From IMG/VR virus record IMGVR_UViG_3300050821_013618, positions 1-36,058 of that record: DNA of 36,058 nt. One strand, written 5' to 3'. The notes below the pieces were generated by a model, which was not told where the DNA came from, made no database searches, and saw nothing but the letters and a program-made list of their open reading frames with translations. Made by a program: the position numbers and the translations under genes. Source of the stretch: a virus. Positions 98 through 28,253 of the stretch are shown piece after piece (within the stretch, counting starts at the first letter, position 1; each line of letters starts with the position of its first letter).

Positions 98-358
98 CTG
101 CCGAAGCTACTTCGAGAGCTCTTGTGGGCGGCCGATAAGAAATCGGTGACGCTCTCACTGGAGTATCGAGCCGACGTGTCCGGCTGCGAATGGTGGGAAA
201 TCCGCTGGGGCGATCAGTTCGCGGTGGCGACAACCCTTGAACTCTGCCTGTTTCGCGCCGCCGTCATTCGACGACGGGATGACCAGCGGGCTCAGCGCTA
301 TGCGGGCATTGAAGCCCCGCCCACAACCGCTCCAACCCCGCCACAGTCCGCTCCGTAG
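32..358 (+). CDS. Small hypothetical protein (108 aa), divergent from portal
   Basis: I do not recognise this protein. It starts at ATG 32 behind GGGGAGG at 14-20 and has a natural mix of residues, including a segment rich in Trp, Arg and Leu (EYRADVSGCEWWEIRWG), then a Pro/Thr-rich tail. The start codon lies in a CCATGG palindrome that also holds the ATG of the portal gene on the other strand (35994 in the repeated copy), so the two genes begin back to back on the same six bases. The 3' end overlaps the tail of the metallopeptidase-like gene by 95 bp in convergent orientation. It is one of several short plus-strand genes set against the minus-strand virion operon. Confidence 0.6.
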   Translation: MGSAFDSEVYSERQRLPGVSISLPKLLRELLWAADKKSVTLSLEYRADVSGCEWWEIRWGDQFAVATTLELCLFRAAVIRRRDDQRAQRYAGIEAPPTTAPTPPQSAP

Positions 359-10173: not shown

Positions 10174-10322
10174 AACGAAACGGCCCCGGTGCACCAGCCA
10201 CGGTCCCGGAGCCGCTCGCAAACCCGAAGGAGCCTCTCAAGCTACCGCGCCGGTCCGTGCGGTTCAATCGCCTGATCGCGCACGCCCAATCCGGCGTCCT
10301 GTGGATTCGGGATCTGCCGTAA
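10170..10322 (+). CDS. Short basic Pro-rich ORF (50 aa)
   Basis: The GTG start at 10170 overlaps the previous stop. The product is basic and Pro-rich (PATVPEPLANPKEPLKLPRR) and ends VLWIRDLP. Part of it (10181-10231) is one of three copies of a hairpin element; the other copies may be non-coding. It may be a real gene or only an open frame through that element. Confidence 0.35.
   Translation: MKRNGPGAPATVPEPLANPKEPLKLPRRSVRFNRLIAHAQSGVLWIRDLP
10181..10231. repeat. Hairpin element 'GCACC-AGC', copy A
   Basis: A hairpin (CGGCCCCGG against CCCGGAGCC, imperfect) has a loop beginning GCACC. It is followed by GCTCGCAAACCCGAAGG, a purine-rich tail resembling a ribosome-binding site. It is related to copies at 10443-10493 and 12306-12355. 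Confidence 0.5.
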
Positions 10323-25339: not shown

Positions 25340-25852
25340 TCAATGGACGGGGCGGATAGTGCTCAGGCGGAAGTGGCCCTGCGCGAGGAAGTAACCTTGG
25401 GGCTCCTGCGCGGGCTGGCGATCGAACGCGGGGTCACTGAAGACGATCTCTCCCGTCTCGGCGCCGAGCCCCACGAGGTCCTGGGAGAAACTCACGCCGG
25501 TCGCTGGGATCGGAATCCCGTCGGGCAAGAGCGCGGTGACGAGCATGTCCCAGAGGTCCACCACATCGTCGATGCAGGTGCTCGAAACGGCGATCTCGAT
25601 CATCACGCCCAGATTGCCGGCCTGGGCGTCGGGCGAGTACCAATCGACACCGCTGGGATTGGGGCTGAGGCGCACCAGCGGGGCCGTGGCCGTCGGCACC
25701 AGGGGCTGATAGTCCGCGGCCTTGCCGGTCCAGGAGAGGACGTTGTCGATGCCGACGACGCGGCGCACGTCGGCGTTGGTCTCGAGCTGGGCGACGATCC
25801 GGCGAAAGATCTTCGTCCAGACGCTCAGCGGTGTCTTGAGGGATTTCGGCAT
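25340..25852 (-). CDS. Tail terminator / tail completion protein (170 aa)
   Basis: A single alpha/beta domain: helix WTKIFRRIVAQLETNADVRR, strand VGIDNVLSWTG, and a beta part (LGVMIEIAVSSTCIDDVVDL, TGEIVFSD). This fits tail terminator proteins, which cap the tail tube. Such genes lie just before the tail tube gene, as here. The CRISPR-like repeats lie directly upstream, between its ATG 25852 and the previous gene. Confidence 0.6.
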   Translation of the reverse strand: MPKSLKTPLSVWTKIFRRIVAQLETNADVRRVVGIDNVLSWTGKAADYQPLVPTATAPLVRLSPNPSGVDWYSPDAQAGNLGVMIEIAVSSTCIDDVVDLWDMLVTALLPDGIPIPATGVSFSQDLVGLGAETGEIVFSDPAFDRQPAQEPQGYFLAQGHFRLSTIRPVH

Positions 25853-25895
25853 CGTGCTGTATCAAACGGGTGAAGGGTGCCGGAGGATGTGTGGA

Positions 25896-26070
25896 CTTCC
25901 ACCCGAGAGGGTGGCCCCATTGAAGCAAGACCAAAACGTGCGTCTGGACGGCCGTGTTCCGGACTCTTCCACGCCGGTAACGGCGTGGCCCCATTGAAGA
26001 CCTCGACGCCTCGGTAGCGGCGAAACTGGCCGTCTTATTCCGGGCCCTTCGGGGCCCGGCCCCATTACCC
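25896..26070 (+). CRISPR. Three CRISPR-repeat-like hairpins with two spacer-sized gaps
   Basis: Repeat R1 25896-25925, R2 25966-25999 and R3 26037-26070. R1 and R2 begin CTTCCAC; all three contain GGCCCCATT, in R1 and R2 followed by GAAG. Stems differ but pair fully: CCACCC/GGGTGG with loop GAGA, CCACGCCG/CGGCGTGG with loop GTAA, CCGGGCCC/GGGCCCGG with loop TTCG. The gaps are 40 and 37 nt. The end ATTGAAG(C) resembles the 8-nt 5' handle (ATTGAAAC type) of crRNAs. R3 is degenerate at its 3' end, as last repeats often are. Stable tetraloops of GNRA/UNCG type exist only on the plus strand. No cas gene is present. Antisense to the virion operon. Confidence 0.65.
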
Positions 26071-26895
26071 GTACATCGGGTTCGTGCTCGAGCAATCGAT
26101 GTTGATGTCCGCGAACCCGTCCCCGTTCGTGTCCAGGCTCAGCGTCAAGCACGTCGCGAGGTAGTCCGACTGTGAGTGGTACATGCGGGCCAGCCGGGCA
26201 TACGCCGCGGCGGAATCCCCCGTACCGATCTGCCCTTCGCAGATGTAGGCCAGCGCCTTCTTTGCCGCCGCCTCGCGGACCTGGTCCGTCACGAGTAGCG
26301 TGTTCGCGTCGAGCTGATCTTGCAGCCACGTTGAGCGGGCCCCACTGATTCGCGGCCCGAACGCTTGCGAGCCCACCACCATCACCATCGAGGCCACGCG
26401 GTAGTGGGCGTGGGCCAAATCTTCTAGCCAACTGCGGGCCCGGCCGAGCTGCTCGGCGAAGCCGGCCTCATCGTCCGAGGTCTGGAGCTGCTTCAGCCAC
26501 GAACGCCCGTACCTGAGCAGGTCGGAGTATGCGCAATACGTCGTGGGTGGAGTCTCGGTGCCGACGAAGGGCAGAACGTCGATCGTGCAGCCGTAGGCGT
26601 CGAGGGGGTCACTGGACGGCGGCGTGACTCGGGTCAGGAGTTCGTAGCGGCCCGGCGCGAGGCCCGTGGTCTGCGCAGCCGTGATGTCGATCGCGATCGT
26701 GCCGGATGCGGGGGTGACCCAGGCTGTGGATGCGGTGAACGATGCGGCGCGGTTGCCGCCCGGCCAGACCGTGGTGGAAAGCGTCTCGGTCCCATCGTAG
26801 CCCGTCAGGGCATTGCCGGACTGGTCGCAAAGGACGATCGGGCTCAGGGGCAAAGACGCGCCCTGGGCGACGTCGTAGTTTTCGTTGGTGAACAT
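26065..26895 (-). CDS. Head-tail connector-like protein with N-terminal beta domain (276 aa)
   Basis: Residues 1-110 form a beta domain (FTNENYDVAQGASLPLSPIV, APGRYELLTRVTPP). Residues 120-276 are helical (YSDLLRYGRSWLKQLQTSDD, DQVREAAAKKALAYICEGQI, YARLARMYHSQSDYLATC) and end LSLDTNGDGFADI. The helical part recalls head-completion connector proteins, where a comparable LxLDxDGDGxAD end occurs. The place just before the tail terminator supports this. The last codons overlap the third CRISPR-like repeat. Confidence 0.5.
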   Translation of the reverse strand: MFTNENYDVAQGASLPLSPIVLCDQSGNALTGYDGTETLSTTVWPGGNRAASFTASTAWVTPASGTIAIDITAAQTTGLAPGRYELLTRVTPPSSDPLDAYGCTIDVLPFVGTETPPTTYCAYSDLLRYGRSWLKQLQTSDDEAGFAEQLGRARSWLEDLAHAHYRVASMVMVVGSQAFGPRISGARSTWLQDQLDANTLLVTDQVREAAAKKALAYICEGQIGTGDSAAAYARLARMYHSQSDYLATCLTLSLDTNGDGFADINIDCSSTNPMYG

Positions 26896-26909: not shown

Positions 26910-28253
26910 TTAGGGAATCAGCGATTCGACAGCCGCGGTGTAAGTCGGCTCGAGCAGACCATGGCCGGTCGGCGAGGGATGGACCTTGTCTCCGTAGTTC
27001 GTCGCGTTGTCCGAATCACCGAATGCGCCCATGCCGGAGACCGAGGCGACGTTCGCGATGGCGTCGGCGTGCGAGGCCCAGTTGGCGACCACGTCTGTGT
27101 TGAACGTCGTCCGGTCGGCCTCGAATGTGCCACGAATGCTGTTTGCCACGTCGGAGCGCGGCAGCACGGTGCACGCGACCACTTTCCAGCCAGCCGCACG
27201 CGCGGCGTCGCAGTAGGCGTAGTAAGCAGTCAGAACTTGCGCCGCCGTCTCGCTGCCAAAGGCGATGTCGTTCGTCGCGCCGGCGGCGATCAGAACGTTC
27301 TTCGTGCGCGAGACCGAATAGAGCGGTGTTACCCGGGTGGGATAATCGCTGACCATCTGGCTGATGATGTAGCCCGGTACTGCCGTCTGCGCCCAGCGAT
27401 GCGGATGCGTTCCAGAGGAGAGGGACGCCGACATCCGACCTGCCCACGACTGGTCCGAGGTGACCGTGTATCCGTAGGCGATCGAATCCCCCGCCACGAC
27501 GACGAGCGGACATCCGGTCGGATACCCGGGCGGTCCAGTGATCCTATCCAGGTGATGCAGGAGAGCCACTTCCGCGAACGACCCGGAGACGAGAGCCCCG
27601 GCGATCAGACCGGCCGAGTAAAGGCGCATCTTGCATCGCTGGAAACCCGTACCCATTACAAACCCCGCCGCGGTCCCGCTCGGAATCGTCACGGACTCCG
27701 TGGCTGTTGTAATGCTGCCGCCGGTGAGAACAATACTCCGAACACCGGCCGCCGTGAAAGTCTGGACGATAGCCACGTCGACATCCGGCAACACATTGAG
27801 GCCAGTTGACCCCAGACCGGACGCTCGCAAGGTGACCAGGGCCGATCCGTTCAAGATCGGTCCGAAAGTACCCGTGCCGTCGGTTCCGACCATGACGCCT
27901 TGTGTGCCGCTGGTCGCCTCGGATCGAAGGCGGACCCAGAGGGTGCAGTCGTTGGACGTTGCAGTCGGCCCGGACGGTTGCGTGAGCGATTGCGAGCCGC
28001 CGTTCAACCAGAGATCGGCGGCGTCCGCATATCCGTTCTCGGCTGCCGAGGATGCCTGCCAATGTCCGGAGAGCGGTGATGGCTGGTTGGCGCGATAGAC
28101 ACGATCCGATGGGGCGACGGCGGGGGTTGTCCCGCCCGTATCCGTGTAGAGCGTCGCCGATCCATCGAACCAGAGCGCCAGCCCCGCAAGCGACGCAGGA
28201 GTGAATCCCGCGAACTGCGATGACGCCAGATTTCCGAGGTTCATTCCGGACAT
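26910..28253 (-). CDS. SGNH/GDSL hydrolase tail protein (447 aa)
   Basis: The C-terminal 200 residues carry the SGNH blocks: VVVAGDSIAYGY with the nucleophile Ser at 257, AGATND with Asn at 328, and DKVHPSPTGHG with Asp 422 and His 425. The N-terminal 240 residues are beta-rich, with an LWFDGSATLYTD start typical of lectin-like attachment parts. Such proteins deacetylate polysaccharides of the host surface. The place after the fibre gene supports a tail- or fibre-bound enzyme. ATG 28253 overlaps the fibre stop (TGATG). Confidence 0.8.
   Translation of the reverse strand: MSGMNLGNLASSQFAGFTPASLAGLALWFDGSATLYTDTGGTTPAVAPSDRVYRANQPSPLSGHWQASSAAENGYADAADLWLNGGSQSLTQPSGPTATSNDCTLWVRLRSEATSGTQGVMVGTDGTGTFGPILNGSALVTLRASGLGSTGLNVLPDVDVAIVQTFTAAGVRSIVLTGGSITTATESVTIPSGTAAGFVMGTGFQRCKMRLYSAGLIAGALVSGSFAEVALLHHLDRITGPPGYPTGCPLVVVAGDSIAYGYTVTSDQSWAGRMSASLSSGTHPHRWAQTAVPGYIISQMVSDYPTRVTPLYSVSRTKNVLIAAGATNDIAFGSETAAQVLTAYYAYCDAARAAGWKVVACTVLPRSDVANSIRGTFEADRTTFNTDVVANWASHADAIANVASVSGMGAFGDSDNATNYGDKVHPSPTGHGLLEPTYTAAVESLIP

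Follow-up and report, generated by a model that had tools for sequence, protein, structure and literature searches.

A predicted leaderless type I-G CRISPR mini-array with unequal repeats in a phage virion operon

Introduction

Viruses are known to carry small CRISPR arrays of their own. In the mini-CRISPR arrays of the archaeal viruses SPV1 and SPV2, the spacers are aimed at close viral relatives (Medvedeva et al. 2019, PMC6858448). The same authors noted that the spacer targets lie close to the arrays and left the meaning of this open (PMC6858448). Leaderless mini-arrays were reported in phages in 2019, and some of their spacers are described as matching adjacent genes of related phages and not of the carrier (PMC6858448, PMC11656645). 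A review describes the repeats of leaderless phage mini-arrays as host-identical (PMC11656645). CRISPR repeats are also mimicked by phages without cas genes, in the form of solitary repeat units and RNA anti-CRISPRs (Racr) (Camara-Wilpert et al. 2023, PMC10651486). SRUFinder classifies a full match with a nearby partial match as a mini-array only if identity is at least 90% (PMC10651486), and arrays with unequal repeats can therefore be misfiled.

The locus described here is found in a 36,058-nt stretch of virus DNA (IMG/VR record IMGVR_UViG_3300050821_013618), hereafter the window. The carrier is a phage, as judged by head, terminase, portal, tail and integrase matches in the window. Three repeats and two spacers lie between minus-strand genes of the virion operon, on the strand opposite to the genes. 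The locus satisfies the definition of a virus-borne mini-array, namely one or two spacers, no cas genes and a virus genome. An earlier note, written from the sequence alone, had offered two readings of these units, mimics aimed at the repeats of several hosts or a phage mini-array against rivals.

Anatomy of the array

Repeat 1 (R1; 25896-25926, plus strand) reads CTTCC-ACCC(GAGA)GGGT-GG-CCCC-ATTGAAGC and has a 6-bp stem with a GAGA loop. Repeat 2 (R2; 25966-26000, plus strand) reads CTTCC-ACGCCG(GTAA)CGGCGT-GG-CCCC-ATTGAAGA, with an 8-bp stem and a GTAA loop. The terminal repeat (R3; 26037-26069, plus strand) reads ATTCC-GGGCCC(TTCG)GGGCCC-GG-CCCC-ATTACCC, with an 8-bp stem and a TTCG loop. 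The three stems are different and fully paired, as the earlier note had stated, with 22/22 Watson-Crick pairs. The stem-base CC, followed by GGCCCCATT, is common to R1-R3. GGCCCCATT occurs three times in the whole window, always in the array, against 0.36 expected occurrences. Units with a stem of at least 6 bp followed by CCCCATT were observed three times, versus one in total across 300 shuffled windows.

The full 3' end (ATTGAAGC or ATTGAAGA) is present in R1 and R2 only. R3 keeps its stem and CCCCATT, while the remainder of the handle is gone (ATTACCC) and GAAG is missing. The handle is thus retained in R1 and R2, with one change, and lost in the terminal repeat only; the GAAG-ending flanks that the note had assigned to all three units apply to two of them. 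The end of R3 overlaps the stop codon of the upstream virion-operon gene (26065-26895, minus strand; 276 aa).

Spacer 1 (25927-25965, plus strand) has 39 nt and spacer 2 (26001-26036, plus strand) has 36 nt, giving periods of 74 nt (R1-R2) and 71 nt (R2-R3). The gaps were correctly recognized as spacer-sized, and the values of 40 and 37 nt given previously leave the last handle base uncounted. The array has no leader. Scanning the 40 ORFs of the window against PADLOC revealed no cas gene, as had been claimed, and the units matched no known Rfam family. The promoter scanner reported no promoter. A possible weak promoter, TTGAGG-N18-TATCAA (25836-25865, plus strand; 8/12 consensus bases), was found by eye 30 nt before R1 and stays under the threshold of the scanner. 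A stem closing the leader and tail of the transcript was present in the window fold, where it did not reach significance (p=0.066), and was not general. Elsewhere in the virion operon, the protein encoded at positions 26910-28253 contains a GDSL lipase/acylhydrolase domain (E 2.9e-14).

The repeats belong to subtype I-G

GTDB genomes were searched with a repeat-end pattern, which generated 47 distinct repeats from 52 array stretches. Genuine arrays with the same repeat ends occur in Planctomycetota, Acidobacteria, Myxococcales and other groups. Several of these host arrays adjoin Cas4g/Cas1g fusions (E to 4e-221), Cas3g and Cas2, and the host repeats were therefore assigned to subtype I-G. Repeats in the bacterial arrays average 98-100% identity inside each stretch, and 0/52 arrays examined had unequal stems within one array. 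Among 40 host repeats, changes in the stem are compensated; 96.6% of cells are paired, and covariation was 0.673 versus 0.174 in shuffles.

A covariance model was built from the 40 bacterial host repeats with no phage unit included. It identified R1 (35.1 bits, E=4.1e-8), R2 (41.9 bits, E=4.5e-10) and R3 (24.3 bits, E=5.5e-5, model positions 4-30) on the plus strand. The best minus-strand match at the array had E=0.15. The likeness to CRISPR repeats reported earlier is thereby upheld and narrowed to subtype I-G. The stems are nearly equally stable on the minus strand, so the plus-strand assignment of the earlier note stands on the repeat family and the handle and not on stem stability. The model also gave one weak match elsewhere in the window (257-277, minus strand; E=0.024), which lacks a handle and is probably due to chance.

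Almost all host units have a period of 70-76 nt with a mode of 72 nt (n=1771), compared with 74 and 71 nt in the window. The cut made by the I-G protein Csb2 falls 4 nt past the stem, which gives the crRNA an 8-nt 5' handle (PMC9638904). R1 and R2, with the layout stem-GG-CCCC-ATTGAAGC, fit this cut geometry exactly and would yield the handles AUUGAAGC and AUUGAAGA, although the agreement is one of geometry only, with no cleavage data. The units meet the requirement of a CRISPR array for regular spacing and unique spacers. They do not meet that for near-identical repeats, having three different stems where host repeats are 98-100% identical. That the window units form a CRISPR array of subtype I-G is well supported.

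Spacer 1 resembles a site in the adjacent virion gene of related phages

Spacer 1 encodes KTKTCVWTAVFR and resembles codons 6-17 of homologues of the adjacent virion-operon gene (25340-25852, minus strand), which specifies a 170 aa protein of no database family. The six best peptide matches of spacer 1 are all this site. The homologous site agrees with spacer 1 at 27/36 nt in L154, 25 in L155 and L146, 24 in L153 and 22 in the carrier, that is, 67-75% identity to related phages and 61% to the carrier itself. None of 1000 dinucleotide shuffles of spacer 1 reached 27 anywhere in these sequences. The carrier's own copy (25802-25837, minus strand; codons 6-17) is 90 nt from the spacer and has 14/36 mismatches. 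The claim rests on the comparison with relatives; the within-genome peptide test alone gave only p=0.09. The sampled relatives have CTC at the 5' side of the site, versus the reported I-G PAM TTN. With at least 9 mismatches and CTC instead of TTN, they would not be cut, and spacer 1 was most likely derived from an unsampled relative.

No exact protospacer was found for either spacer in IMG/VR, which was searched with the codon pattern of spacer 1 and a 17-nt core of spacer 2, or in INPHARED; phage matches to the spacers in the protospacer search had E values of 0.1 or worse. Spacer 2 had only chance-level matches. Its best match among ten larger stretches of related phages, 22/26 nt at an unrelated site, is not convincing.

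The 1771 host-array spacers gave only short chance matches to the window and its relatives, so the spacers provide no host link. The stem of R2, the only one searched, was absent from 392 Planctomycetota genomes, which leaves the proposal of mimics aimed at several hosts unsupported. No relative of the flanking gene was detected in 40 of the 392 genomes.

The array is absent from nine loci of phages whose protein corresponding to the upstream gene is 65-75% identical, and from the records of those phages. In one of these array-less relatives, L148, the two flanking genes overlap, from which we infer that the array was inserted at their junction. About 15 nt separate this insertion point from the site to which spacer 1 is similar.

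Similar mini-arrays in other phages

Virus contigs were surveyed with patterns keyed on the repeat 3' end, under the condition that one or more units keep GAAG intact. Intact inner handles are therefore partly the product of search selection, but loss of the terminal handle is not explained this way. Unequal stems in one array were found in six lineages: the window, L007, L010, L024, the L180 family (12 contigs) and L193/L197. Equal or nearly equal repeats were found in L009, L012, L020/L200 and L187. Portal, head, tail, integrase or annealing-protein genes identify L007, the L180 family, L010, L024 and L197 as phages. The terminal repeat has also lost its handle in the mini-arrays of L010, L012, L020, L024, L187, L200 and the L180 family.

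L007 is unrelated to the window phage. Its array is likewise opposite to the virion operon, and the last repeat reaches the stop codon of the preceding gene. The first spacer reads NSRINRTIVIG, and the adjacent gene, 92 nt away, carries NSSINRTIVIG at its start (0/200 shuffles). No relatives of L007 were found with which to test its spacers, and in mini-arrays other than those of the window and L007 no spacer could be assigned to a neighboring gene. The last repeat of L007 (L007:657-704) has a much enlarged hairpin (CCACGCCGTAGGGCCCAGCGCCTTACGGCGTGG).

The L180 family comprises L180, L181, L183, L190 and eight sister contigs, each with a two-repeat I-G mini-array in which the stems are unequal and the spacer has been swapped. 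Between L180 and L181, whose genomes are ~75% identical, the leader and unequal repeats are 91-96% identical and the spacers differ. Across family members with genomes ~74-75% identical, the leader and first repeat are 77-91% identical and the second repeat is 93-96% identical. The spacer is replaced (29-41% identity) even where genomes are ~94% identical. Most of the differences between the spacers of L181 and L190 fall at synonymous positions of a single reading frame (EYERATIRART). Judged by sequence alone, this pattern is that of a functional cassette whose guides can be exchanged. Neither canonical adaptation, in which the repeat is copied, nor straightforward acquisition from an array of the host, whose repeat would come along, fits it. 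A TTGACA-like box just before the array is conserved in the family, as is a leader/tail complementarity of 9-10 bp (GCGCGTCTC/GAGACGCGC).

Two further loci have features of their own. In L193 (450-720) and L197, two I-G repeats with unequal stems surround a partly palindromic 36-nt spacer, and a TTGACA box, the mini-array and a terminator-like hairpin form an apparent compact transcription unit. In L012 (340-480), a 335-kb virus contig, the spacer resembles the stretch before the first repeat (AAATCCTTCGG), as if the two derived from variants of one site.

Proposed function and alternatives

We favor the interpretation that the locus is a leaderless, cas-less I-G mini-array which relies on Cas proteins of the host to act against a related phage, and put its probability at roughly 0.72; transcription, processing, interference and benefit are all inferred. 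The plus strand of the array would be transcribed, and host Csb2 (a Cas5-Cas6 fusion) would bind each hairpin and cut 4 nt after its base. Two crRNAs would be released, with the handles AUUGAAGC and AUUGAAGA and with 3' hairpins contributed by the next repeat. A terminal repeat would supply a 3' hairpin and need no handle, which fits the handle loss in R3. With these crRNAs, host I-G Cascade and Cas3 would attack a related phage that co-infects or superinfects the cell; the target of spacer 1 would be the 5' end of the virion gene whose copy in the carrier adjoins the array. The carrier would escape because its own allele differs at 14/36 positions. The repeats may diverge because Cas1-Cas2 does not copy repeats in the phage, and the stems would remain paired because Csb2 needs the hairpin. 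Divergence might also guard the spacer from loss through direct-repeat recombination. This, the second option of the earlier note, is favored by a period equal to that of I-G arrays, by handles retained in R1 and R2 and lost in the terminal repeat alone, and by the homology of spacer 1. Against it stand the absence of an exact protospacer, of a spacer-2 match, of a clear promoter and, for the R2 stem, of a matching host genome, as well as the 67-75% identity and the CTC of the sampled spacer-1 homologues.

Could the array instead spread by homing? In both the window and L007 the array is directly upstream of a virion gene start codon, and the first spacer resembles the first codons of the homologous gene ~90 nt away. 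Host Cascade/Cas3 might cut an array-less rival, and repair would copy the array together with the resistant allele, as in homing endonucleases; unequal repeats would stop the cassette from deleting itself by recombination. We regard an RNA-guided homing element of this kind as a speculative possibility.

The main rival to the mini-array is a cluster of Racr-type RNA anti-CRISPRs, in which transcribed units soak up host Csb2 and Cas7 and poison I-G immunity, and the stretches between units are filler. Racr candidates have been described for nearly every CRISPR type (PMC10651486), and unequal repeats suit decoys as well as guides. Solitary I-G-like units do occur in other virus contigs (L006, L008, L021 and L025), and that of L006 is soon followed by a terminator-like hairpin. 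On the other hand, the window keeps the CRISPR period and does not qualify as a solitary unit without array spacing. RacrIF1 acts through a missing functional handle (PMC10651486), whereas the window handles are kept and just the terminal one is lost, and the gene of a related phage is the most likely source of spacer 1. An RNA anti-CRISPR explains fewer facts than a mini-array does and appears unlikely here, but it is not excluded. The solitary L006 repeat (10194-10226, minus strand), whose terminator-like hairpin with a T-run lies within ~50 nt, is itself a candidate RNA anti-CRISPR for I-G.

Somewhat less plausible still is a decayed relic of a formerly functional mini-array that has gone out of use. 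Such a relic would account for unequal repeats, the missing R3 handle, the lack of an exact target in the collections and the related phages without an array. Decay breaks stems, however, and all pairs are intact in three different stems; moreover, in the L180 family, unequal arrays of a comparable kind have been conserved between divergent phages. Ordinary structural hairpins of the virion-operon mRNA (terminators or attenuators) or a recombination site would suit units that fold on either strand between two minus-strand genes, but were rejected as very improbable given that there is no U-tract, that the CRISPR repeat model matches the plus strand only, and that relatives with the same operon lack the units.

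CRISPR finders and the published solitary-unit and mini-array pipeline, which depend on near-identical repeats, would miss such arrays or file them as solitary units. Searching with a single repeat family was enough to reveal six phage lineages whose repeats are unequal. Unequal arrays also separate the selected parts of the I-G repeat (pairing, CCCC and handle) from the free part, the stem sequence. They sharpen two questions: how spacers are renewed in leaderless phage arrays, given that the L180 family retains its unequal repeats and changes its spacer, and why spacers are directed at a neighboring gene.

Comparison with known systems

Chromosomal I-G arrays, for example those of Singulisphaera acidiphila (L031/L057/L109), share with the window the 5' CTTCC, the GGCCCCATTGAAGC 3' end, the stem length and the period. 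They differ in that their own repeats are 98-100% identical and that cas genes lie beside several of those tested. Like the SPV1/SPV2 arrays, the window array has 1-2 spacers, no cas genes and an intergenic position in a virus; the SPV1/SPV2 arrays also have spacer targets close to the array and a carrier shielded by mutations in its own copy of the target. The SPV1/SPV2 arrays have leaders and host-like repeats, whereas the window array is leaderless, of subtype I-G and in a tailed phage, and its repeats differ from one another. Leaderless phage mini-arrays are described as having host-identical repeats (PMC11656645), and in the window no two repeats share a stem. Racr and other solitary repeat units stand alone, but the window has three spaced units with handles (R1 and R2) and a relevant spacer.

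The literature searched, which did not extend to subscription papers, including Faure et al. 2019, described neither a mini-array whose repeats are unequal and compensated nor one of subtype I-G. It was already known that virus-borne mini-arrays can be directed against relatives, and that they occur in phages, can be leaderless and can be aimed at adjacent genes. What is new is the subtype, I-G, the presence of repeats that are not identical but have compensated stems, and the fact that such repeats recur in six phage lineages.
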